Positions 25,282-37,815 of a stretch of DNA of 37,815 nt are shown here, in pieces; the first letter of the stretch is position 1; every line of letters starts with the position of its first letter. Below the pieces are notes generated by a model. It ran no database searches. It was not told where the DNA came from and worked only from the letters and a program-made list of their open reading frames with translations. This stretch comes from Lysobacteraceae bacterium (GTDB lineage Bacteria > Pseudomonadota > Gammaproteobacteria > Xanthomonadales > Ahniellaceae), in contig JAJTHZ010000139.1 in assembly GCA_021299185.1 (NCBI GenBank), positions 1-37,815 on the forward strand, written 5' to 3'. Position numbers and translations under genes: made by a program.

Positions 25282-25488
25282 TCCCCGCGGCACGCGCGTG
25301 ATCACCATCTCGACGCGCCGCGCCGCGGTCGGTACCTTCTGCGTGGCGTCGTCGACCTCGGACTGCGCGCCAGCCGCTGCCGCGAACGACGGCCGCGCCC
25401 CCCGCGCGCACGGCCGGATGACGTCGTCGCGGTGCGTGGCGGGTCGCCGCGACCCCTTGCCCCACCGGACCTGCCGATCGAGACCGCC

Positions 25489-26970
25489 GTGCCCACGAAC
25501 CCGCTGGACCAACTGCAGGCCCCGAGCCTGCTCAAGACCGACGCCCTGATCGGCGGCGCCTGGATCGCGGGCACGGCCCGCGTCGATGTGCTGGACCCGG
25601 CGACCGGCGCGAAGCTCGCCGATGTCGCGCGGCTCGGCGCCAGCGAGGCCACGGCCGCGATCGCGGCGGCGGATGCCGCCTGGCCCGCGTGGCGCGCGAC
25701 CACCGCCAAGGCGCGCGCGGCCATCCTGCGGCGCTGGTTCGACCTCGTGCAGCGGCACGCCGAGGACCTGGCCCGGATCATGACCGCCGAACAGGGCAAG
25801 CCACTGGCCGAGGCGCGCGCCGAGGTCGGCTTCGGCGCCAGTTTCATCGAGTGGTTCGCGGAAGAAGCGCGCCGCGTCTACGGCGAGACCATCCCCACCA
25901 CCGATCCCAACAAGCGCTACCTGGTGATCCGGCAGCCGATCGGCGTGTGCGCGGCGATCACCCCGTGGAACTTCCCGATCGCGATGATCACCCGCAAGGT
26001 CGCGCCGGCGCTGGCCGCGGGCAACGTGGTGGTGGTCAAGCCGGCCGAGGCCACGCCGCTGTGCGCGCTCGCGCTGGCCGAACTGGCGCAGCAGGCCGGG
26101 CTGCCACCGGGCGTGCTCAACGTGCTCACCTCCGACGCGGCAGGCGCGGTGGCCATCGGCAAGGCCTGGTGCGCGAGCAACACGGTGCGCCACCTGTCGT
26201 TCACCGGCTCCACCGAGGTCGGGCGCCTGCTCGCCGCGCAGTGCGCGCCGACGATCAAGAAGCTGGGCCTGGAACTCGGCGGCAACGCGCCCTTCATCGT
26301 CTTCGACGACGCCGACCTCGACAGCGCGGTCGAAGGCGCGACGCTCAGCAAGTACCGCAACGCCGGGCAGACCTGCGTGACCACCAACCGCTTCTACGTG
26401 CAGGCGGGCATCCACGATGCGTTCGTCGAGCGGCTCGCGGCGAAGGCGCGCGCGATCCGCCTCGGCAATGGCTTCGAGCCCGGCGTGGGCCAGGGCCCGC
26501 TGATCGACGCCGAGGCGGTGGCCAAGGTCGAGTCCCACGTCGCCGATGCGCTCGCGCGTGGCGCGCGGTTGGTGGCTGGCGGGACCCGCGCCCAGGAGAT
26601 CGGCGCTGGCTTCTACCGGCCCACCGTGCTGGCCGGGGTCACGCCGGAAATGCGCTGCGCGCGCGAGGAAACCTTCGGCCCGGTGGCTGCGGTGCTGCGC
26701 TTCGAGACCGAAGCCGAGGCGATCGCGCTGGCCAACGCCACCGAGTTCGGGCTCGCCAGTTACTTCTACAGCCGCGACGTCGGCCGCATCTTCCGCGTCG
26801 CCGAAGCGCTCGAGTACGGCATGGTCGGCATCAACACCGGACTGGTTTCGACCGCCGAAGTGCCGTTCGGCGGCGTCAAGCAGTCCGGGCTGGGACGCGA
26901 AGGCGCGCGCCAGGGCATCGACGAGTACGTCGAGACCAAGTACCTCTGCCTCGGCGACGTGCAGGCCTGA
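25489..26970 (+). CDS. GabD-family aldehyde dehydrogenase, candidate sulfolactaldehyde dehydrogenase
   Basis: The 493-aa product is an NAD(P)+-dependent aldehyde dehydrogenase of the succinate-semialdehyde (GabD) branch: N161 in TPWNFPIAM, E262 in LELGGNAPFIVFDDAD, C296 in NAGQTCV, plus PFGGVKQSGLGREG near the end. Enzymes of this branch also oxidise (S)-3-sulfolactaldehyde to sulfolactate in sulfoglycolysis; characterised cases include Pseudomonas putida SQ1 and the Rhizobium GabD homologue. It converges on glpK, 18 bases from the sulfonate operon. No separate sulfolactaldehyde oxidoreductase is in the window, so it is the obvious candidate. Ordinary succinate-semialdehyde oxidation is the alternative. 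GTG 25489 is my best start, without a strong ribosome binding site. Confidence 0.85.
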   Translation: MPTNPLDQLQAPSLLKTDALIGGAWIAGTARVDVLDPATGAKLADVARLGASEATAAIAAADAAWPAWRATTAKARAAILRRWFDLVQRHAEDLARIMTAEQGKPLAEARAEVGFGASFIEWFAEEARRVYGETIPTTDPNKRYLVIRQPIGVCAAITPWNFPIAMITRKVAPALAAGNVVVVKPAEATPLCALALAELAQQAGLPPGVLNVLTSDAAGAVAIGKAWCASNTVRHLSFTGSTEVGRLLAAQCAPTIKKLGLELGGNAPFIVFDDADLDSAVEGATLSKYRNAGQTCVTTNRFYVQAGIHDAFVERLAAKARAIRLGNGFEPGVGQGPLIDAEAVAKVESHVADALARGARLVAGGTRAQEIGAGFYRPTVLAGVTPEMRCAREETFGPVAAVLRFETEAEAIALANATEFGLASYFYSRDVGRIFRVAEALEYGMVGINTGLVSTAEVPFGGVKQSGLGREGARQGIDEYVETKYLCLGDVQA

Positions 26971-26988: not shown

Positions 26989-28473
26989 TCAGGGCTCGTC
27001 CCAGCCGCGCGCGCGCTCGACCGCGCGCGACCAGCGGCGCATCCGTTCGCCGGCCTCGTCGCGGCTGATCGACGGTTCGAACACCCGCTCGGCCTGCCAG
27101 CCTTCCGCGAGTTGCCCAATGGACGACCACACGCCGATCGCGAGCCCGGCGAGGTAGGCCGCGCCCAGCGCCGTGGTCTCGGTGACCCGCGGCCGCACCA
27201 CCGGCACGCCGAGCAGGTCGGCCTGGAACTGCATCAGGAGGTCGTTCACCGTCGCGCCACCGTCGACGCGCAGTTCGATCAGCGGCTGTTCGGCGTCGGC
27301 GCGCATCGCGGCCAGCACTTCGGCGCTCTGGAACGCGATCGCCTCCAGCGCCGCACGCGCGAGGTGGCCGCGCTGGGTGCCCCGCGTGATCCCGAGCACG
27401 GTGCCGCGCGCATAGGCATCCCAGTGCGGGCTGCCGAGCCCGGTGAAGGCCGGCACCATCAGCACGCCGCCGCTGTCGGGCACGCTGGCCGCGAGCGCCT
27501 CGACGTCGCTGGAGCGTTCGATCAGGCCCAGGCCGTCGCGCAGCCACTGCACCACGGCGCCGCCGACGAAGACGCTACCCTCCAGCGCATAGGATCGCGC
27601 GCCGAGGTCCCAGGCCACGGTCGTGAGCAGCCGGTGGCGCGAGCGCAACGGGCGCTCGCCGGTGTTCATGAGCATGAAGCAGCCCGTGCCATAGGTGTTC
27701 TTGGCCATGCCGGGGCGGAAGCAGGTCTGGCCGAACAGCGCGGCCTGCTGGTCGCCGGCGATGCCGGCGAGCGGTACCTCGTGGCCCTCGATCCGCGCGA
27801 AGAGGCCGGCGCGATTGGCCGACGGCAGGATGCGCGGCAGGCAGGCCGCGGGCACGTCGAACAGCGCCAGCATCTCCGGGTCCCAGCCGCCTTCGAGGTT
27901 CATCAGCAGGGTGCGGCTGGCGTTGCTGGCGTCGGTCACGTGGGCCTGCCCGCCGCTGAGCTTCCACGCCAGCCAACTGTCGACGGTGCCGAAGCACAGC
28001 TCGCCGCGCGCGGCGCGCTCGCGCGCGCCCGGCAGATGGTCGAGCAGCCAGGCGAGCTTGGTGCCGGAGAAGTACGGATCGAGCAGCAGCCCGGTGCGCG
28101 CCGCGACCCGCGCCTCGTGCCCGGCGGTGCGCAGCGCGTCGCAGCGCTCCGCGGTGCGCCGGTCCTGCCAGACGATCGCCGGCGCCACCGGATGGCCCGT
28201 CGCGCGATCCCACAGCACGACGGTTTCGCGCTGGTTGGTGATGCCGACCGCGGCGATCTCCCGGGCCGCGACGCCGGCCCGCGCCAGCACCTCGGCGATC
28301 GTGCTCGCCTGCGAGACCCAGATCTCGTCGGCGTCGTGCTCGACCCAGCCGGGCCGCGGGTAGTGCTGCGCGAACTCGCGCTGCGCGACGGCGACGATGC
28401 GGCCTTCGCGATCGAACAGGATCGAGCGCGAACTGGTGGTGCCCTGGTCCAGCGCGAGGATGTAGCGCGACAT
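26989..28473 (-). CDS. glpK: Glycerol kinase
   Basis: GlpK phosphorylates glycerol to sn-glycerol 3-phosphate with ATP. The 494-aa FGGY-family protein starts [21 protein letters not shown] and shows NQRET in the glycerol pocket, [22 protein letters not shown], and the C-terminal signature [10 protein letters not shown]...[19 protein letters not shown]. It is the last gene of the operon that begins at suyA, 31 bases after glpD. In this setting it would trap glycerol released from sulfoquinovosyl glycerol (inference). Confidence 0.95.
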
Positions 28474-28504: not shown

Positions 28505-30010
28505 TCAGGCGCGCTGCGCGGCGATCCAGTGGTCGAGTGTGCCCGCCGCCGCGGGGCCGAGGTGCAGGCCGAGCTTGCTGCGCCGCCACAGGATGTCGTC
28601 GGCGGTGAGCGCCCATTCCTCGCGCATCAGGTATTCGATCTCGGCGGCATGCAGGCCCGGCAGCACCGCCTCGCCGAGGTCCGCGAGGCCCGTCGCGGTG
28701 CCGACGATCTTGCGCATGCGCGTGCCGTAGGCGCGCGCGAGGCGCAGCCGCAGCGGCGCGGGCAGCCACGGCCAGCGCGTTGCGGCCACCTCGAGGAAGC
28801 GCGCGAAGTCGGCCTGCGGCAGGTCGCCGCCCGGCAAGGGTGCGCCGGCGGTCCAGCGCGGGCGGCTGGCGCCCAGCGCGGTCGCGATGCGATCGACCGC
28901 TTCCTCGGCCAGCACGCGGAAGGTGGTCAGCTTGCCGCCGAACACCGACAGCGCCGGCGCGCCGACCTGGTCGAGTTCGAACACGTAGTCGCGGGTCACG
29001 CTGGACGGATCGTCGGACTCGTCTTCGAGCAGCGGACGCAGGCCGGCGAAGCTCCAGACCACGTCGGCGGGGCCGATCCGGCGCTCGAAGTACTGGTTCG
29101 CCATGCCGCAAAGATAATCGACCTCGGCGGCGCCGATGCGCGCCGTGCCGGGCCCGTCGGTGTGCTCGACGTCGGTGGTGCCGATCAGGGTGAAGTCCTG
29201 CTCGTAGGGCAGCGCGAAGACGATGCGCCGGTCCGGCGCCTGGAAGATGTAGGCATGCTCGTGCGCGAACAGACGCCGCACCACGATGTGGCTGCCCTTG
29301 ACCAGACGCACGCCGTTGCGTGCCTTCACCGGCGAGCGATCACGCAGGAACTCGGCCGCCCACGGGCCTGCGGCATTGACCAGCGCGCGCGCGGCGACCT
29401 CGGTGCGGCCGTCCGGACCGGCGAGCACCGCGCGCCAGTGCCGCTCGCGCCGCACCGACTCGCAGCGCGTGCGGGTGAGCACCGTGGCGCCGCGTTCGCG
29501 CGCGTCCACGGCGTTGAGCACCACCAGCCGCGCGTCGTCGACCCAGCCGTCGGAGTATTCGTAGCCGCGGCGGAAGCGCGGCGCCAGCGGTGCGCCGGCG
29601 GGATGCGCGCGCAGGTCGATCCCGCGCGAGCCGGGCAGGCGCCGGCGGCGCGCCAGGTGGTCGTACAGGAACAGCCCGATGCGGATCATCCAGTCCGGCC
29701 GCAGGTGCGCGTCGTGGGGCATCACGAAGCGCATCGGCCACATGATGTGCGGGGCCGCATCAATCAGGCGCTCGCGCTCGGCGAGTGCCTTGCGCACCAG
29801 GCGGAACTCGTGGTGCTCGAGGTAGCGCAGCCCGCCGTGGATCAGTTTGGTGCTGGCCGACGAGGTGTGGCCGGCGAGGTCGTCCTGCTCGACCAGCAGC
29901 ACCTTCAGCCCGCGGCCGGCGGCATCGCGCGCGATGCCCGCGCCGTTGATGCCGCCGCCGACCACCAGCAGGTCGAAGACCTCGTTGCCGATCGCCGCGG
30001 CGTCAGTCAT
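28505..30010 (-). CDS. glpD: Aerobic glycerol-3-phosphate dehydrogenase
   Basis: GlpD is the membrane-associated FAD enzyme that oxidises glycerol 3-phosphate to DHAP and passes electrons to quinone. The 501-aa product has the FAD-binding [19 protein letters not shown] near the start, then [16 protein letters not shown], and a C-terminal DAO_C domain (about 385-490). It starts at ATG 30010, overlapping the yeiH-like stop by 8 bases, so translation is coupled to the sulfonate genes. DHAP is also the non-sulfonated product of the predicted aldolase, so both branches meet here. Confidence 0.95.
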
Positions 30011-31001
30011 AGACCAGGCCCACCAGCGCGAAGGCGAGCGTGCCGATGAACACCGTCGCCGCCGCGCCCAGCGCGAGCGGCCGCCAGCCCTGCGCGCGGA
30101 GCGAACGCAGGTCGGTTTCCAGCCCGACCGCGACGAGCGCGACGGCGAGCAAGGCCTGCGACAGCCACGCCAGCGCGACCCGCGCCGCGTCCGGCAGGAT
30201 GTCCGCGCTGGCGACGCACACCATTGCCACGAAGCCGAAGGCGAACCACGGCACGGGCACCGCGGAAGCGCCACCGCCCGCCCGGCGCGCCAGCACCAGC
30301 CCCAGCAACAGCACCATCGGCGCCAGCATCAGCACGCGCGCGAGCTTGCTCGCCATGCCGTACTGCCCCGCCTCGTCGCCGAGCGCGAATGCCGCGGCGA
30401 CGACCTGCGCGACTTCGTGCACCGACGCGCCGATCCAGACCCCGTAGGCCTGGTCCGTCATGCCCGCCAGGGCACCGACCAGCGGGAAGCCCAGCATCGC
30501 GACGGTGCCGAAGAGCGTGACCACGCCGAGCGCATAGGCCACCGATTCGCTGCGGTCGCGCACCACGGCGTTCATCGCCACCGCCGCCGACGCGCCGCAG
30601 ATCGAGGTGCCCGCCGCGATCAGCATCGACAGCCCGGCGTCGACCCCGAGCAGGCGCCCGATGGCGAGCGTGAAGCCGAAGGTCAGCACCACGCAGGCCA
30701 CCAGCAGCGCCACGCCGGCGGGCGTGATCGCCAGCAGTTGCGCCAGCGTGAGTTGCAGGCCGAGCAGGACGATGCCGATGCGCAACGGACGGCGCAGGCA
30801 GGCGGCGATGCCGGGCCCGGCGGCGGCCGGCACGCCGCGCAGGTTGCGCCAGGCCGCGCCGAGCACGATGGCGAGCATCAAGGCGCCCGGCGCCCACTCC
30901 GGGAAGGCCGCGCGGATTCCGAAGGCGAGCGCCGCCAGCGCACCGGCCAGCGCCAGCCCGGGCAGCAGCGCGGCCGGGCCTGCTGCGCCGGCCGGGCTCA
31001 T
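30003..31001 (-). CDS. YeiH-family putative sulfate/sulfite exporter
   Basis: The 332-aa product has about ten membrane helices and the family core TSICGASAAVAMNAVV, with WIGASVHEVAQVVAA downstream. This is the YeiH/UPF0324 family, often annotated as putative sulfate exporters and repeatedly found beside sulfonate-desulfonation genes. Here it would remove sulfite (or sulfate) released by SuyAB. Transport has not been shown for most members, so the substrate is inferred from context. Its ATG overlaps the slcC stop by four bases. Confidence 0.85.
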   Translation of the reverse strand: MSPAGAAGPAALLPGLALAGALAALAFGIRAAFPEWAPGALMLAIVLGAAWRNLRGVPAAAGPGIAACLRRPLRIGIVLLGLQLTLAQLLAITPAGVALLVACVVLTFGFTLAIGRLLGVDAGLSMLIAAGTSICGASAAVAMNAVVRDRSESVAYALGVVTLFGTVAMLGFPLVGALAGMTDQAYGVWIGASVHEVAQVVAAAFALGDEAGQYGMASKLARVLMLAPMVLLLGLVLARRAGGGASAVPVPWFAFGFVAMVCVASADILPDAARVALAWLSQALLAVALVAVGLETDLRSLRAQGWRPLALGAAATVFIGTLAFALVGLVYD

Positions 31002-31924
31002 CCGGCCAGTCGGGCGGCCACGGCCTGTGCGATCACCGCGCTCACCCGCTCGTTGGATTCGACGGTCACGCCGGCGATGTGCGGCGTCAGCAGGAGATTC
31101 GGCACGCCGGCGAACAGGCGGCCGGCCGCCGCATCGACCGGCTCGCGTTCGAACACGTCGAGCGCGGCGCCGCCGAGGCGGCCGCCGCGCAGGGCGTCGA
31201 CCAGCGCGGCCTCGTCCACCACCCCGCCGCGCGCTGCGTTGATCAGGATCGCGTCCGGCTTCATGCGCGCCAGCGCGGCGGCATCGACGAGACGCGTGGT
31301 CGCCGGCGTCAGCGGCACATGCAGGCTCACCACGTCGCTGTGTGCCAGCAGGTCGGCCAGCGGAAGGTTGCGCACGCCCTCCCACGCCGGATGGTCGGCG
31401 GGCAGGAAGGGATCGTGGGCGGCGATCGACATCCCGAGCGCGCGGGCGTGGATCGCAGTCTGCCTGGCGATGGCGCCGTAGCCGACCAGGCCCAACTGCT
31501 TGCCCGACAGCTCGCGACCCATCAGGCGTTGGCGCGGCCACTCGCCGGCGGCGACCGCGTCGCTCGCGAACCAGGCGCGGCGCAGCAGCACCAGCGCCGC
31601 GGTGACCACGTATTCGGCGACCGCGAGGTCGTTGGCGCCGGTGGCGGGGAACACGGCGATGCCGCGCGCCTCGCAGGCACCGACGTCGATGTTGTCGAGG
31701 CCGACACCGAGGCGCCCGACCACGGTGAGGCGCGCCGCCGCCTCGAGCAGCGCACCGCGCACCTGGGTGCGGTTGCGCACCACCAGCGCGCGCGCGTCGG
31801 CCACCGCCGCGCGCAGTGCATCCGGCTGGTCGACCAGCGTCGGGGCGTAGTGCACGTCGAAGCCGGACAGGTGCGCGCGGATCGCGGCCTCGTCCATGAA
31901 CTCGGTGATCACGATGTCGGCCAT
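30998..31924 (-). CDS. slcC: (S)-sulfolactate dehydrogenase (D-2-hydroxyacid dehydrogenase family)
   Basis: SlcC oxidises (S)-3-sulfolactate to sulfopyruvate with NAD+. The 308-aa product is a 2-hydroxyacid dehydrogenase: Rossmann loop GLVGYGAIA (145-153), catalytic R232 in NAARGGVVDE, a glutamate in DVFEREP, and H282 in TPHIAG. It has VGRLGVGLDNID in the substrate domain. By sequence alone it could be a phosphoglycerate dehydrogenase-like enzyme. The specific name rests on its place between comC and the exporter, an arrangement described for sulfolactate degraders such as Chromohalobacter. GAGGAAGC lies about 7 bases upstream. Confidence 0.8.
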   Translation of the reverse strand: MADIVITEFMDEAAIRAHLSGFDVHYAPTLVDQPDALRAAVADARALVVRNRTQVRGALLEAAARLTVVGRLGVGLDNIDVGACEARGIAVFPATGANDLAVAEYVVTAALVLLRRAWFASDAVAAGEWPRQRLMGRELSGKQLGLVGYGAIARQTAIHARALGMSIAAHDPFLPADHPAWEGVRNLPLADLLAHSDVVSLHVPLTPATTRLVDAAALARMKPDAILINAARGGVVDEAALVDALRGGRLGGAALDVFEREPVDAAAGRLFAGVPNLLLTPHIAGVTVESNERVSAVIAQAVAARLAG

Positions 31925-31953: not shown

Positions 31954-32970
31954 TCAGGCCGGCGGCAACAGGGCGCGGATCGCGGCGTGCAGTTCGCCCG
32001 GGACCGTGAGGCCCTCGCGCGCGGCGCGCGCGCGCAGCGCGAGGCGCCGCTCGCCGGGCAGCCGCACCTCGGGCTCGTCGGCGATCGCGTCCAGCAGCAC
32101 GCCGATGCGTTGCGCGTAGGCGCCGCCCGACAGCGGCCCGGGATCCAGCGCGACCAGCACCTGGCCCATGTCGGGCGGACCGCCCTGGTCGTCGAAGAAC
32201 GAACTGGCCTCCCAGCCCCAGGCCGACCCGGTGACCGCGGCGGCGAGGATTTCGACCATCAGCGCCAGCGCCGCGCCCTTCGCGCCGCCGATCGGCGACA
32301 GCGTGCCGGCGAGCGCCGCCGACGGATCGGTGGTCGGCTGTCCCGCCGCGTCCACCGCCCAGCCTTCAGGGATCGGCTCGCCGGCCTTCTGCGCGGCCAC
32401 GATCTTGCCGCGTGCGGCGACCGACAGCGCGAGGTCGATCACCAGCGGCGCACGGGAATCAGTCAGCGGTGCGGCGAAAGCAAGCGGATTGGTGCCCAGC
32501 AGCGGTCGCCGGCCACCCCACAGCGCCATCGCCTTCGGCGTATTGCCGAGCACCAGCCCGACCAGGCCGGCCGCGGCGAGTCGCTCCGCGTGCGCGCCGG
32601 CCTGCCCGAAGTGGTGCGAGCGATGCAGCACGGCCACCGCGATGCCGCTGGTGCGCGCCAGCGGCACCAGCGCCGCGATCGCCGCGTCGATCGCGGGATA
32701 GGCGAAGCCATGGCCGGCATCGACCCGCAGCGCGGCGGCCGCGACCTGCTCCACGCGCGGCACGGCACGACCGTCGACCTTGCCGCAGCGCGCATGCAGC
32801 GCGTAGGTGCTCACCCGCGACAGTCCATGGCCCGCCTGCCCGTCCGCCTCGGCGGCGACCAGGGCCTTCGCGGTGGCGCGCGCGCTGGCGTCCGAAGCGC
32901 CGCTGTGCGCCAGCGCGGCGGCGGCCAGCGCCTCGGCGTCCCCGAGGCTGAGCTGCACCGGATCGACCAC
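31954..32970 (-). CDS. comC: (R)-sulfolactate / sulfopyruvate reductase (Ldh2 family)
   Basis: ComC interconverts sulfopyruvate and (R)-3-sulfolactate. The 338-aa product belongs to the malate/L-lactate dehydrogenase (Ldh2) family, which has a non-Rossmann NAD(P) fold: EADGQAGHGLSRVSTY near the start, the active-site HRSHHFGQAG, and WGGRRPLLGTNPLAFA, IGGAKGAALALMVE. Other family members act on malate, ureidoglycolate or 2,3-diketogulonate; the neighbours make the sulfonate substrate far more likely. I chose GTG 32970, 11 bases after the suyB stop, because the domain begins there and the frame upstream lies inside suyB. Confidence 0.8.
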   Translation of the reverse strand: MVDPVQLSLGDAEALAAAALAHSGASDASARATAKALVAAEADGQAGHGLSRVSTYALHARCGKVDGRAVPRVEQVAAAALRVDAGHGFAYPAIDAAIAALVPLARTSGIAVAVLHRSHHFGQAGAHAERLAAAGLVGLVLGNTPKAMALWGGRRPLLGTNPLAFAAPLTDSRAPLVIDLALSVAARGKIVAAQKAGEPIPEGWAVDAAGQPTTDPSAALAGTLSPIGGAKGAALALMVEILAAAVTGSAWGWEASSFFDDQGGPPDMGQVLVALDPGPLSGGAYAQRIGVLLDAIADEPEVRLPGERRLALRARAAREGLTVPGELHAAIRALLPPA

Positions 32971-32981
32971 GGACGCCGGAC

Positions 32982-34154
32982 TCAGGCGCTGCGGTAGAGC
33001 TTGGTCATCACGAACTCGCGGTGACCCAGCGCCTCGGCGGCGGTCAGGCGACCGTTGGCCGTGTGCACGATCATGTCGATCAGCGCGTCGCCCGCCTGGT
33101 CGATGGTCATCGCGCGGCGCACGATGCCGGAGACGTCGACGTCGACGTGCTCGGACATCAGGCGCACCGTGCGCGGGTTCCCGGTGACCTTGATCACCGG
33201 CATGATCGGGTTGCCGATCACGTTGCCCTGGCCGGTGGGGAAGATGTGCAGCACGTAGCCGGCCGCGGCCTGCAGGGTGCAGCACTCGGCCGCCGCCGAC
33301 GAGGTGTCCATGAAGTACAGCCCGGGGCCCGCGGCCGGCGCTTCGGCCGGCTGCAGCACGTCGATGAAGCTGACCTTCTTGCCGATCTTCTCGAGGTTGC
33401 CGAGGGCCTTTTCCTCGATCGTGGTCAGTCCGCCGGCGATGTTGCCCTTGGTCGGCTGGCTGTCGGAGAGGTCCGAGGTCTTGTGCGCCTCGATCACCTC
33501 GTCCTGGTAGGCCTTCCAGGTGCGCATGAACTTCTCGCGCACCGCCGGCGTGGCGGCGCGCGCGGCCGCGAGGTGCTCGGCACCGGTCAGTTCGGAGGTC
33601 TCGCCGAAGCAGCCGTAGAGGCCGGCCGGGATCAGCTTGTCGTACATGTTGCCGACGGTCGGGCAGGACGCCAGCCCGGTGGTGGTGTCGGACTCGCCGC
33701 ACTTGGCGGCGATCCACAGTTCCGACAGGTCGCACTCGACCCGCAGTTGGCCGGAAGTCTGGTGCACGAACTCCTTGGCCTTGCGCGACGCCGCGGCGAT
33801 GGTGGCGATGTCGCCGTTGCCCTCGATCCAGAAACCGGCCACCGGCTTGCCGGTGGCGGCGATGCCGTCGACGATCCGCTTCGTCCAGCCCGGCTCGATG
33901 CCGATCACGATGCAGGCGGCGACGTTGGGGTTGGCGCCGGTGCCGATCATGGTGCGGAAGTGCAGCTCGAGGTCCTCGCCGAACTGCAGGCGGCCGTAGG
34001 CGTGCGGCAGGGCGATGGTGCCCTGGATGTGCGCGGCAACCGCCTCGCAGGCGGCGTTGGAAATGTCGTCGACCGGCAGGATGGCGACGTAGCTGCGCAC
34101 GCCGACCCGGCCGTTCTCGCGCCGGTAGGCCAAGATCTTGCGATTGCTGCTCAT
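32982..34154 (-). CDS. suyB: (R)-sulfolactate sulfo-lyase, large subunit
   Basis: SuyB is the catalytic subunit of the enzyme that splits (R)-3-sulfolactate into pyruvate and sulfite. The 390-aa product belongs to the UxaA/altronate dehydratase large-domain family: [19 protein letters not shown] at the start, conserved [14 protein letters not shown] and [14 protein letters not shown], and [12 protein letters not shown]...KVTGNP near the end. The cysteines of these segments are probable metal ligands. Length equals known SuyB proteins. AAGGAG lies about 8 bases before the ATG, 19 bases after suyA. Altronate or galactarate dehydration is the alternative, made unlikely by comC and slcC next door. 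Confidence 0.88.
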
Positions 34155-34583: not shown

Positions 34584-35303
34584 ATGGATGCCGCGCCCCA
34601 CTACCGCCCGCTGTACCGCCAGGTCTACGACTTCCTGGTCAAGCAGATCGCCGATTCCGTGTGGCGACCCAACGACACCCTGCCCAGCGAGCAGGCACTC
34701 GCCGAGCAGCTGCGCGTCAGCCAAGGCACGGTGCGCAAGGCGCTCGATACCCTGGTGGCCGAGAAACTGATCGAACGCCGCCAGGGCAAGGGCACCTTCG
34801 TCGCCGAACATACGCAGGAGCGCGCGCTGTTCCGCTTCTTCCGCCTCTCCGAGCCCGGCGGCGAGCGCACGGTGCCGACCAGTTCCGACGAATCGGTGAA
34901 GCGCCGCCCGGCGAAGGCCGCCGAACTGCGCAAACTGCACCTCGATGCCGGCGAACAGGTGGTGGAGATCGTGCGCACGCGCAGCGTCAGCGGCCGGCCG
35001 GTGATCTACGAGCGCAGCGTGCTCGCGCTGCGGCACTTCCCCGACATCGACCGCCGGCAGCCGCTGCCGAACACCCTGTACGCGATGTTCCAGCAGCAGT
35101 ACGGCGTCAACATCGTCAGCGCCGAAGAGGAACTGCGCGCCGACCTCACGCGCGCGGAGGACGCACGGCGCCTGCCGCTGGCGGTCGGCGCGCCGCTGCT
35201 GCACATCGAGCGGGTGGCGATCGCGCTGGACGGCAGCCGGGTCGAGTGGCGCGTGAGCCGATGCGACACCTCGCATCTGGTCTACGCCGTCACCCTGTCC
35301 TGA
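34584..35303 (+). CDS. GntR-family (HutC subfamily) regulator of the sulfosugar locus
   Basis: The 239-aa product has a winged helix of the GntR type in residues 8-75 (PLYRQVYDFLVKQIAD, LPSEQALAEQLRVSQGTVRKALDTL, RRQGKGTFVAE) and a UTRA ligand-binding domain in 90-235 (VVEIVRTRSVSGRPVIYERS, then VEWRVSRCDTSH). UTRA domains bind small sugars, phosphates or organic acids, so sulfoquinovose or an intermediate is a reasonable effector (inference). It is first in the plus-strand operon and divergent from suyA, so it probably controls both units and itself. E. coli uses a DeoR-type regulator (CsqR/YihW) instead, so this is a different control system. Confidence 0.88.
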   Translation: MDAAPHYRPLYRQVYDFLVKQIADSVWRPNDTLPSEQALAEQLRVSQGTVRKALDTLVAEKLIERRQGKGTFVAEHTQERALFRFFRLSEPGGERTVPTSSDESVKRRPAKAAELRKLHLDAGEQVVEIVRTRSVSGRPVIYERSVLALRHFPDIDRRQPLPNTLYAMFQQQYGVNIVSAEEELRADLTRAEDARRLPLAVGAPLLHIERVAIALDGSRVEWRVSRCDTSHLVYAVTLS

Positions 35304-35327: not shown

Positions 35328-36230
35328 ATGGCCGCTGTCGTCCTCTGCGTCGGCCATGCGGTGCAGGACTTCGTGTTCGGCGTGCATGAACTCCCGGTCG
35401 CGGCGCAGAAGCATCGCGCGACCTCGTTCACCAGCGTCGGCGGCGGACCGGCCGCCACCGCGGCCGTCGCGATCGCCCGCCTCGGCGGCCGGGCACGGCT
35501 CGCCGCCCGGCTCGGCGCGGATCCGGTAGCCGACGTGGTCACCGCCGAACTCGCCGGCCACGGCGTCGACTGCACCTTCGTCCGCCGCTTCGCCGGATGC
35601 ACCTCGTCGCTGTCGGCGGTGATGGTGGATGCGGCCGGCGAACGCATGATCGTCAACTACCTCGACCCCTCGCTGCCGCGCGCGGCGGACTGGCTGCCAC
35701 CACCGCGCGCCACCGGCTGCGGTGCCGTGCTCGCCGACACGCGCTGGCCCGAAGGTGCGCTCGCGGCGCTGGCGGCGGCGCGCACGGCGGGACTGCCCGG
35801 CGTGCTCGATGCCGACCGTCCGATCCCCACCGACCGCGCCGTGCTGGCCGCGGCGAGCCATGTCGCCTTCTCGCACGAGGCGCTGGCTGAGTTCACCGGC
35901 GAGCCGGACCCGCGGCGCGCGCTGGAAATCGCGGCGCGCGGCCTCGACGCGTGGTGTTGCGTCACGGTCGGCGCGCAGGGCGTGCACGTGCTGGCCGACG
36001 GCCGCCACCAGCACCTGCCCGGACACCGCGTCGCCGTGGTCGACACGCTGGGCGCCGGCGATGTCTGGCACGGCGCGTTCGCGCTGGCGCTGGCCGAAGG
36101 ACGCGCCGAGCTCGACGCAGTGCGCTTCGCGAGCGCCGCGGCGGCGCTCAAGGTGCAGCGCGCAGGCGGCCGCGCCGGCGCGCCGACCCGCGCCGAGGTC
36201 GACGCATTCATCGCTTCCCTTCCGGAGTAA
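35328..36230 (+). CDS. yihV: Sulfofructose kinase (YihV-like, PfkB family)
   Basis: The enzyme phosphorylates 6-deoxy-6-sulfofructose at C1 with ATP. The 300-aa ribokinase-fold protein is close in layout to E. coli YihV (298 aa): VGGGPAATAAVAIARLG (37-53), SSLSAVMVDAAGERMIVNY (93-111), LADTRW (135-140) and the catalytic D245 in DTLGAGDVWHG. The three residues I recall as contacting the sulfonate in E. coli YihV (K27, N109, R138) align with K28, N110 and R139 here; ordinary fructokinases do not keep this set. It starts 24 bases after gntR and ends 4 bases before the aldolase. An ordinary sugar kinase is possible but less likely. Confidence 0.85.
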   Translation: MAAVVLCVGHAVQDFVFGVHELPVAAQKHRATSFTSVGGGPAATAAVAIARLGGRARLAARLGADPVADVVTAELAGHGVDCTFVRRFAGCTSSLSAVMVDAAGERMIVNYLDPSLPRAADWLPPPRATGCGAVLADTRWPEGALAALAAARTAGLPGVLDADRPIPTDRAVLAAASHVAFSHEALAEFTGEPDPRRALEIAARGLDAWCCVTVGAQGVHVLADGRHQHLPGHRVAVVDTLGAGDVWHGAFALALAEGRAELDAVRFASAAAALKVQRAGGRAGAPTRAEVDAFIASLPE

Positions 36231-36234
36231 CCCG

Positions 36235-37281
36235 ATGCAACTGTCAGCAGGCAAGTACCGCGGCATGCGCCGCCTGGCCGACCGCCAGGGCCGGTTCAAG
36301 ATGACCGCGGTGGACCAGCGACCGCCGATCAAGAACCTGATCCGCGAACGACGCGGCACCGCGCAGGCGCCGTGGGAAGACGTCGCCGGCTTCAAGGAGC
36401 TGCTGATCCGCGAACTGCAGGGCGAGTCCACCGCGATGCTGCTCGACCCGCACTACGCCTACCCGCGCGGCGTGACGATGCTGGATCCCGCGCTGGGCAT
36501 GATCCTGACCCTCGAGGACTCGCTGTTCACCGAGACCCCGGGCGGGCGCCTGTCGGCCGAGATCGACGACTGGTCGACGGAGAAGATCAAGCGCGCCGGC
36601 GGCGACGCGGTGAAGGTGCTGACCTGGTACCGGCCCGACGCCGATCCGGCGGTGTGCGAGGCGCAGCAGGCCTTCACCGCGCGGATCGGCGACGCCTGCC
36701 GCCGCTACGACCTGCCCTTCGTGTTCGAACTGCTGGTCTACCCGCTCGCGCGCGACGCGGAGCAGACCCGCGACTACGTCGAGATGAAGACCAAGCATCC
36801 CGACCTGGTGCTCGACAGCGTGCGCGCGTTCGCCGATCCGAAGTACGGCGTCGACCTGTTCAAGCTCGAGAGCCCGATCCCGGCGTCCGACCTGCCCGAA
36901 CCGGGCAGCGAGGGCGCGCCGCAGGCGCAGGCATTGTTCGACGAACTCGGCCGGATCGCCGGCCGGCCATGGGTGATGCTTTCGGCCGGCGCCGGCATGG
37001 CGCAGTTCCGCCGCGTGCTGCATTACGCCTACGCGGCCGGCGCCTCGGGCTACCTGGCCGGTCGCGCGATCTGGCTCGACGCCTTCCAGCGGTTTCCCGA
37101 CTGGCAGGCGATCGAGGCCGGGCTGCGCGAGCAGGCCGTGCCCTACATGCGGGGGCTGAACGCGCTCACCGATGAAGCGGCCACGCCGTGGCATCGTCAT
37201 CCGTGCTACGGCCCCGAGGGCCCGCGCGTGCTGCCCGCCGATGCATCGTTCCGTCACGTCTATCCCGGATTCGGAGCCTGA
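36235..37281 (+). CDS. Class I aldolase, LacD/YihT family; candidate sulfofructose-1-phosphate aldolase
   Basis: The 348-aa product is a Schiff-base aldolase of the tagatose-bisphosphate aldolase (LacD) superfamily. MTAVDQRPPI at 23-32, LLDPHYAYP, VKVLTWYRPDAD (127-138), probable Schiff-base K210 in VDLFKLESP, and phosphate-site ASGYLAGRAIW (270-280, R277) are seen. E. coli YihT has the equivalent YKVEMP and AGRAVW but is 292 aa, so this resembles the longer LacD type. Placed between a YihV-like kinase and an isomerase, it should cleave sulfofructose 1-phosphate to DHAP and sulfolactaldehyde. Tagatose-bisphosphate cleavage is the alternative. CCGGAG in the kinase stop region is the ribosome binding site. 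Confidence 0.8.
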   Translation: MQLSAGKYRGMRRLADRQGRFKMTAVDQRPPIKNLIRERRGTAQAPWEDVAGFKELLIRELQGESTAMLLDPHYAYPRGVTMLDPALGMILTLEDSLFTETPGGRLSAEIDDWSTEKIKRAGGDAVKVLTWYRPDADPAVCEAQQAFTARIGDACRRYDLPFVFELLVYPLARDAEQTRDYVEMKTKHPDLVLDSVRAFADPKYGVDLFKLESPIPASDLPEPGSEGAPQAQALFDELGRIAGRPWVMLSAGAGMAQFRRVLHYAYAAGASGYLAGRAIWLDAFQRFPDWQAIEAGLREQAVPYMRGLNALTDEAATPWHRHPCYGPEGPRVLPADASFRHVYPGFGA

Positions 37282-37282
37282 C

Positions 37283-37815
37283 ATGGCACTCACCTACGGG
37301 GTCGCGGTGCTCGCGCGACCGACCTTCGATGTTCCCTTCGCCGAGGAAACCAAGGCGCGCGCGTTCGCCGCGCTGGACGCCGCCGGCATCCGCACCGTCG
37401 GCCCGCGCGAGCTGCTGTTCGACCGCGCCGCGGCCGAGCGTGCGCTGGCACAGATCGCCGCCGCGGGCGAGATCGACCTGATGCTGATCCTGCAGGTGAC
37501 CTTCACCGACGCCACGATGACGGTCGAGATCGCGCGGGGCGCCAAGGTGCCGCTGGCGGTCTGGGCGCTGCCGGAGCCGCGCGCCGGTGGCCGGCTGCGG
37601 CTGAACGCGTTCTGCGGGCTCAACCTCGCGGCGCACGCGCTCGGTCGCGCCGGCGTGCCGCACGGCTGGCTGTATGCGGACCCCGACGAGGCGGGACTCG
37701 GCGAACGCCTGCTCGCGCTGGGCGCTCCCGCGGCGGCACCGGCCGACGGTGCGCGCGTCGCGCCGGGCGGTGCGGCGCCGATCGACCGCGCCGCCGCCGA
37801 GCGCGCCCTCGCCGC
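37283..37815 (+). CDS. Fucose/arabinose-isomerase-like protein (partial), candidate sulfoquinovose isomerase
   Basis: The first 177 residues are present and the frame is open at the window end. The sequence (VLARPTFDVPFAEE, LMLILQVTFTDATM, VWALPEPRAGGRLRLNAFCGLNLAAHAL) matches the N-terminal part of L-fucose/arabinose-isomerase-related proteins. These are metal-dependent aldose-ketose isomerases. Proteins of this family called SqvD have been reported to isomerise sulfoquinovose to sulfofructose in sulfo-transaldolase and sulfo-EMP2 pathways, as I recall, replacing the unrelated YihS. The start lies one base after the aldolase stop with CGGAG upstream, so it belongs to the same operon. Catalytic metal ligands are in the missing part. 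Confidence 0.6.
   Translation, partial: MALTYGVAVLARPTFDVPFAEETKARAFAALDAAGIRTVGPRELLFDRAAAERALAQIAAAGEIDLMLILQVTFTDATMTVEIARGAKVPLAVWALPEPRAGGRLRLNAFCGLNLAAHALGRAGVPHGWLYADPDEAGLGERLLALGAPAAAPADGARVAPGGAAPIDRAAAERALA

Follow-up and report, generated by a model that had tools for sequence, protein, structure and literature searches.

The coexistence in one bacterium of both halves of sulfosugar breakdown, sulfoglycolysis and the cleavage of sulfolactate, has been called unusual, and the sole sulfoquinovose example is unexplained (Stewart et al. 2025, PMC12421959). The characterised sulfolactate sulfolyase, SuyAB, is placed in Cupriavidus pinatubonensis JMP134 (review PMC12890257), and Sinorhizobium mexicanum is listed among the organisms with SuyAB homologues (PMC12421959).

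The window analysed here is a stretch of 37,815 nucleotides from a Lysobacteraceae bacterium (contig JAJTHZ010000139.1). The preferred reading, to which we assign a probability of about 0.78, is that its PfkB-family kinase is a 6-deoxy-6-sulfofructose 1-kinase that would feed a tandem sulfoglycolysis and sulfolactate-lyase pathway; the gene very probably encodes a sugar kinase that aids bacterial use of a sulfonated plant sugar. The kinase reading frame is intact and encodes 300 residues with no interruption. The features of the locus are collected in Table 1.

Table 1. Features of the locus, in window coordinates except for the last row, which refers to the adjoining contig
Feature	Position	Strand	Basis or remark
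GabD/SSADH-type aldehyde dehydrogenase, proposed sulfolactaldehyde dehydrogenase; start codon uncertain	25432..26970	+	TIGR01780 682 bits, over cut-off; PDB 8c54 E 2e-167
Glycerol kinase GlpK	26989..28473	-	Named by recognising the translation; homologue (54%) in L031
Glycerol-3-phosphate dehydrogenase GlpD	28505..30010	-	Named by recognising the translation; homologue (57%) in L031 sulfonate locus
YeiH-family putative sulfate/sulfite exporter	30003..31001	-	TIGR00698 162 bits, below cut-off of 233
SlcC-like 2-hydroxyacid dehydrogenase	30998..31924	-	PF02826; recurs beside suyAB in L009, L158
ComC-like sulfolactate dehydrogenase	31954..32970	-	NF040650 183 bits, below cut-off of 500; PF02615
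SuyB-like large subunit of sulfolactate sulfolyase, UxaA family	32982..34154	-	PF20629 and PF04295
SuyA-like small subunit of sulfolactate sulfolyase, 95 residues	34174..34461	-	Sequence; plasmid homologues 64-74% identical beside SuyB homologues
GntR/UTRA regulator, between two divergent gene groups	34584..35303	+	PF07702 and PF00392; same position in L009, L158
PfkB-family kinase, proposed 6-deoxy-6-sulfofructose 1-kinase, YihV-like	35328..36230	+	PF00294 E 2.9e-43; PDB 7ag6 E 4.7e-64; model on 7ag6_A, rmsd 1.4 Å
K28 codon AAG	35409-35411	+	YihV K27; kept in nearly the whole kinase group and Pfk-2
N110 codon AAC	35655-35657	+	YihV N109; column best tracking sulfonate neighbourhood
R139 codon CGC	35742-35744	+	YihV R138; present too in 2RBC-type kinases
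Class I aldolase, LacD/PRK12858 type, proposed sulfofructose-1-phosphate aldolase	36235..37281	+	NF009498 338 bits, cut-off 184; PDB 8tnf E 5e-97
Sulfoquinovose-isomerase-like (SftI/SqvD type) protein, N-terminal part, cut by contig end	37283..37815	+	NF048012 64.9 bits
GH31 enzyme	L005:16214-18217	-	Nearest to YicI-type alpha-xylosidases, rather than YihQ

The top match of the kinase among solved structures is YihV (7ag6_A), to which it is 44% identical in a two-sequence alignment. The sequence-only reading had placed K28, N110 and R139 at the positions of K27, N109 and R138 of YihV, which we take to be the sulfonate-contacting residues of the YihV structure, and the alignment bears this out: all three are invariant, and each of the GGGPAATAAV, GER-I-NY and LAD-RW blocks is present. 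The same three residues are encoded by yihV of E. coli MG1655, as read from the genome (NC_000913.3). Superposition of a predicted model on the YihV complex, which that reading had named as a check, agrees. The AlphaFold2 model (53 related sequences as input, pLDDT 95.4) superimposes on the YihV-sulfofructose complex 7ag6_A with a Z-score of 44.9 and an rmsd of 1.4 Å over 297 residues; its residues 2–300 map to residues 1–299 of YihV with a constant shift of +1, the same at both ends, and the triad is in register. At 44% identity, three given positions would all match by chance in about 8% of cases (0.44 cubed), assuming independent positions. Agreement at K28 and R139 is expected from homology because both are near-invariant across the kinase group, and of the triad residues N110 alone is informative.

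The distribution of the triad was surveyed in 120 fetched and aligned kinases, 80 from species genomes and 40 from further loci, most of the latter found by a phylum-wide search and a few by a class-wide search that used 2RBC as the query. Loci were labelled by marker genes within the fetched flanks, and residues were counted in the 96 loci that span 14 kb or more. Lysine occupies position 28 in 95 of these 96 loci and arginine position 139 in 84. Asparagine is present at position 110 in 39 of the 46 sulfonate-context loci (85%) as compared with 8 of 42 without any marker gene (19%), the latter label meaning that the fetched stretch holds no marker gene, which does not prove another substrate. 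Position 110 is the column that best separates sulfonate from non-sulfonate neighbourhoods in the whole protein. It is nevertheless occupied by Ala, Ser or Gly in seven sulfonate-context loci; Ser or Ala stands there in L012, L020, L029, L030 and L039, all of which have this type of isomerase, and L012, L029 and L039 have SuyB as well. In tree-corrected pairs (five pairs on supported branches of a tree built without the three triad columns) the link between N110 and context is not significant; the association fades when relatedness is taken into account, relatives sharing N110 by descent. In the kinase tree, the window kinase and YihV are placed in separate groups; both groups have weak support and both also contain kinases that lack sulfonate genes.

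Outside the sulfonate-context loci, E. coli Pfk-2 has Lys at the first triad position and Val and Ser at the other two, and the combination is K-P-R in the Agrobacterium kinase 2RBC and its relatives and K-T-R or K-I-R in further groups. The fetched flanks of the K-P-R, K-T-R and K-I-R kinases showed no isomerase, YihT, GH31 or suyB; one of these kinases (L145) has an aldehyde dehydrogenase homologue nearby. K28 and R139 do not mark sulfonate use, because the lysine is common to Pfk-2 and both residues to kinases without sulfonate genes nearby, whereas N110 is a useful marker, although neither a necessary nor a proven one. These counts caution that K27 and R138 by themselves should not be used to identify a sulfosugar kinase. 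They also bear on the earlier proposal, which ranked the triad first among the residue-level evidence for a sulfosugar locus. A role of the locus in handling a sulfosugar is well supported, chiefly by the neighbour genes; the weight given to the triad was not sustained, K28 and R139 being so widespread and occurring also in the non-sulfonate 2RBC-type kinases. The neighbourhood outranks the triad as evidence because two of the three residues are common to kinases with no sulfonate genes nearby.

Other kinase groups were seen in the survey. Kinases from Bosea, Chelatococcus and other Rhizobiales (L010–L011, L013, L015–L017, L019, L021–L022, L024–L025 and L040) are 52–54% identical to the window kinase. 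They have Ser in place of N110, and none of the marker sulfonate genes lies within about 10 kb of them; the neighbour in L011 is an aldose 1-epimerase. Divergent kinases in L152–L156 and L159 have K-N-H instead of K-N-R, and their fetched flanks hold none of the marker sulfonate genes. In L132, L142 and L147, a kinase with the K-N-R triad accompanies a LacD-type aldolase, and neither the isomerase nor suyB is nearby.

On the minus strand, suyA, suyB, slcC and comC together constitute, by homology and gene order, a sulfolactate sulfolyase module. The SuyB-like protein is 66% identical to a C. pinatubonensis plasmid copy and 73% identical to a Paracoccus versutus plasmid copy, and 73–77% identical to the Paracoccus and S. 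mexicanum copies. A search for PF00174 found no sulfite oxidase in the genome, though SuyAB should release sulfite.

On the sugar side, the aldolase and YihT (7ag1, E 1e-18) both belong to Pfam PF01791, but the aldolase is of the LacD type and distant; members from sulfonate loci are 26–28% identical to YihT, and the family matched, NF009498, is named tagatose 1,6-diphosphate aldolase. A YihS-type isomerase is absent from the locus, and an SftI/SqvD-type gene stands in its place. This isomerase scores against the SftI sulfoquinovose isomerase model only, far below its cut-off, and bears an L-fucose-isomerase C-terminal domain; a sequence search with the L009 copy as query found no relative in the PDB. 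Its second half (NF048012, 194 bits) lies at the end of a further contig, C8 (L005), and this end overlaps window positions 37758–37815 in 58 identical bases, and the two contigs are taken as adjacent. Beyond the isomerase, C8 carries genes for the GH31 enzyme, a TonB-dependent receptor and the TRAP transporter components DctQ, DctM and DctP. R301, W304 and Y508, presumably the sulfonate residues of YihQ, are absent from the GH31 enzyme, which has D, F and F at the aligned positions in a stretch that aligns with gaps and is uncertain. GH31 relatives in L020, L023 and L031 have a TRF-F motif where YihQ has its sulfonate residues. The best matches of the aldehyde dehydrogenase are ordinary SSADH enzymes. 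Equivalents of R171 and R289, two arginines for which a part in sulfonate binding by RlGabD has been proposed (PMC10599462), were located by eye in MITRK and YRNAGQTC, and they are found also in the aligned SSADH sequences.

An isomerase of this kind and suyB occur together in 13 of the 120 fetched loci. The nearest kin of the kinase, in L158 (62% identity), L009 and L031, all have both. L009 (Woeseia) and L158 (a gammaproteobacterial genome) resemble one another in a divergent layout, suyA-suyB-comC-slcC on one side and gntR-kinase-isomerase-TRAP on the other, and the window shares with them the divergent suyAB/gntR/kinase arrangement. Neither the LacD-type aldolase nor GH31 was found in the flanks of L009 or L158, which carry genes of the Gfo/Idh/MocA-like oxidoreductase family (family search on L009 alone); this family is related to the NAD-dependent glycosidases of GH188 and GH109, and the distribution of GH188 sulfoquinovosidases reportedly complements that of GH31 (PMC10755693). 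L031 has nearly the whole set, including the aldolase, GH31, the aldehyde dehydrogenase, glpK and glpD. Among 10 genomes of its own family, a close match to the kinase is found only in the genome of origin. It seems somewhat probable that these are one conserved locus type of gamma- and alphaproteobacteria, in which kinase-aldolase sulfoglycolysis is coupled with sulfolactate sulfolyase; one bacterium would then degrade a sulfosugar glycoside completely, to sulfite and central metabolites, with no sulfolactate excreted for others. Both halves in one locus would shift who is expected to release sulfite.

We infer every substrate and reaction of the proposed pathway from gene content, gene order, homology, fold and residue alignment. 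The TonB receptor and TRAP transporter would take up a sulfosugar glycoside, from which the GH31 enzyme would free the sugar for conversion to the ketose by the SftI/SqvD-like isomerase. The kinase would transfer phosphate from ATP to C1 of 6-deoxy-6-sulfofructose, and the LacD-type aldolase would cleave the product to dihydroxyacetone phosphate and sulfolactaldehyde. The latter would be oxidised to sulfolactate by the aldehyde dehydrogenase, the SlcC/ComC pair would convert S-sulfolactate to R-sulfolactate, and SuyAB would release pyruvate and sulfite from the R form. GlpK and GlpD may serve to metabolise the glycerol set free from a sulfosugar glycerol. In favour of this pathway are YihV as the closest solved relative of the kinase, the nearest kin in like loci, the SuyA and SuyB homology and the join to C8; against it stand the YicI-like GH31, the isomerase below the SftI cut-off, the distant aldolase, the SSADH-like dehydrogenase and the near-tie with 2RBC.

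The kinase might instead act on another sulfonated ketohexose, such as sulfotagatose derived from sulfofucose, in a similar pathway that also ends in SuyAB. The GH31 without the YihQ sulfonate residues, the aldolase of tagatose-bisphosphate type and the fucose-isomerase domain of the isomerase would suit this substrate, and a kinase/aldolase pair of these families lies beside suyAB in a sulfofucose degrader; that pair, however, was not induced by sulfofucose (Stewart et al. 2025, PMC12421959). At the triad positions the kinase matches YihV, and homologues of the isomerase (42–43% identical) occur in yih-type loci of Serratia and Yersinia (L046, L052 and L055) together with YihU and a 76–77% identical YihQ homologue. 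We consider sulfotagatose unlikely, and the isomerase homologues beside YihQ and YihU homologues speak in favour of sulfoquinovose as the candidate sugar.

Action on a phosphorylated hexose, as a tagatose-6-phosphate kinase or a Pfk-2-like enzyme paired with the LacD-type aldolase, is very improbable. Pfk-2 too has the lysine of K28, and the name of the aldolase family fits, but the kinase is 43% identical to YihV as against 23% to Pfk-2 and recurs across loci with suyAB and the sulfoquinovose-isomerase homologue. Just as little probability attaches to an ordinary kinase of an unsulfonated sugar, of ribokinase or 2RBC-like type, that lies beside sulfonate genes by chance: 2RBC comes close to YihV in fold and shares the lysine and arginine, and for many kinases of the group the surrounding 10 kb or so is free of sulfonate genes, yet 2RBC has proline at the N110 position and the nearest kin all lie in the same kind of locus. 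The 2RBC/ribokinase group was rejected as the family of the kinase on neighbourhood.

Taken by itself, the kinase is an ordinary further member of a known family; of more interest is the variant formed by the combined locus. The kinase resembles E. coli YihV (PDB 7ag6, 7agh, 7agk) in its PfkB fold (rmsd 1.4 Å), 44% identity and K/N/R triad. The partners of YihV are YihS, YihT, YihU and YihQ, whereas those found here are a LacD-type aldolase, an SftI/SqvD-like isomerase, an aldehyde dehydrogenase and SuyAB. The Agrobacterium sugar kinase 2RBC has the same fold (Z 44.0 versus 44.9 for YihV), 36–38% identity and the same K and R, but P in place of N, and most of its fetched relatives have no sulfonate genes nearby. 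As in the sulfo-EMP2 and hybrid sulfo-EMP1/2 loci (PMC12890257, PMC13372026), two sulfo-EMP enzyme sets are mixed in one locus; the described end products of those loci, sulfolactate or DHPS, are excreted, whereas here SuyAB is encoded in the same locus. The tandem sulfofucolytic-sulfolactate sulfolyase pathway of Paracoccus wurundjeri likewise combines sulfosugar breakdown with SlcC, ComC and SuyAB in one organism, but its route is Entner-Doudoroff-like and acts on sulfofucose (PMC12421959), in contrast to the kinase, aldolase and isomerase set of the present locus.
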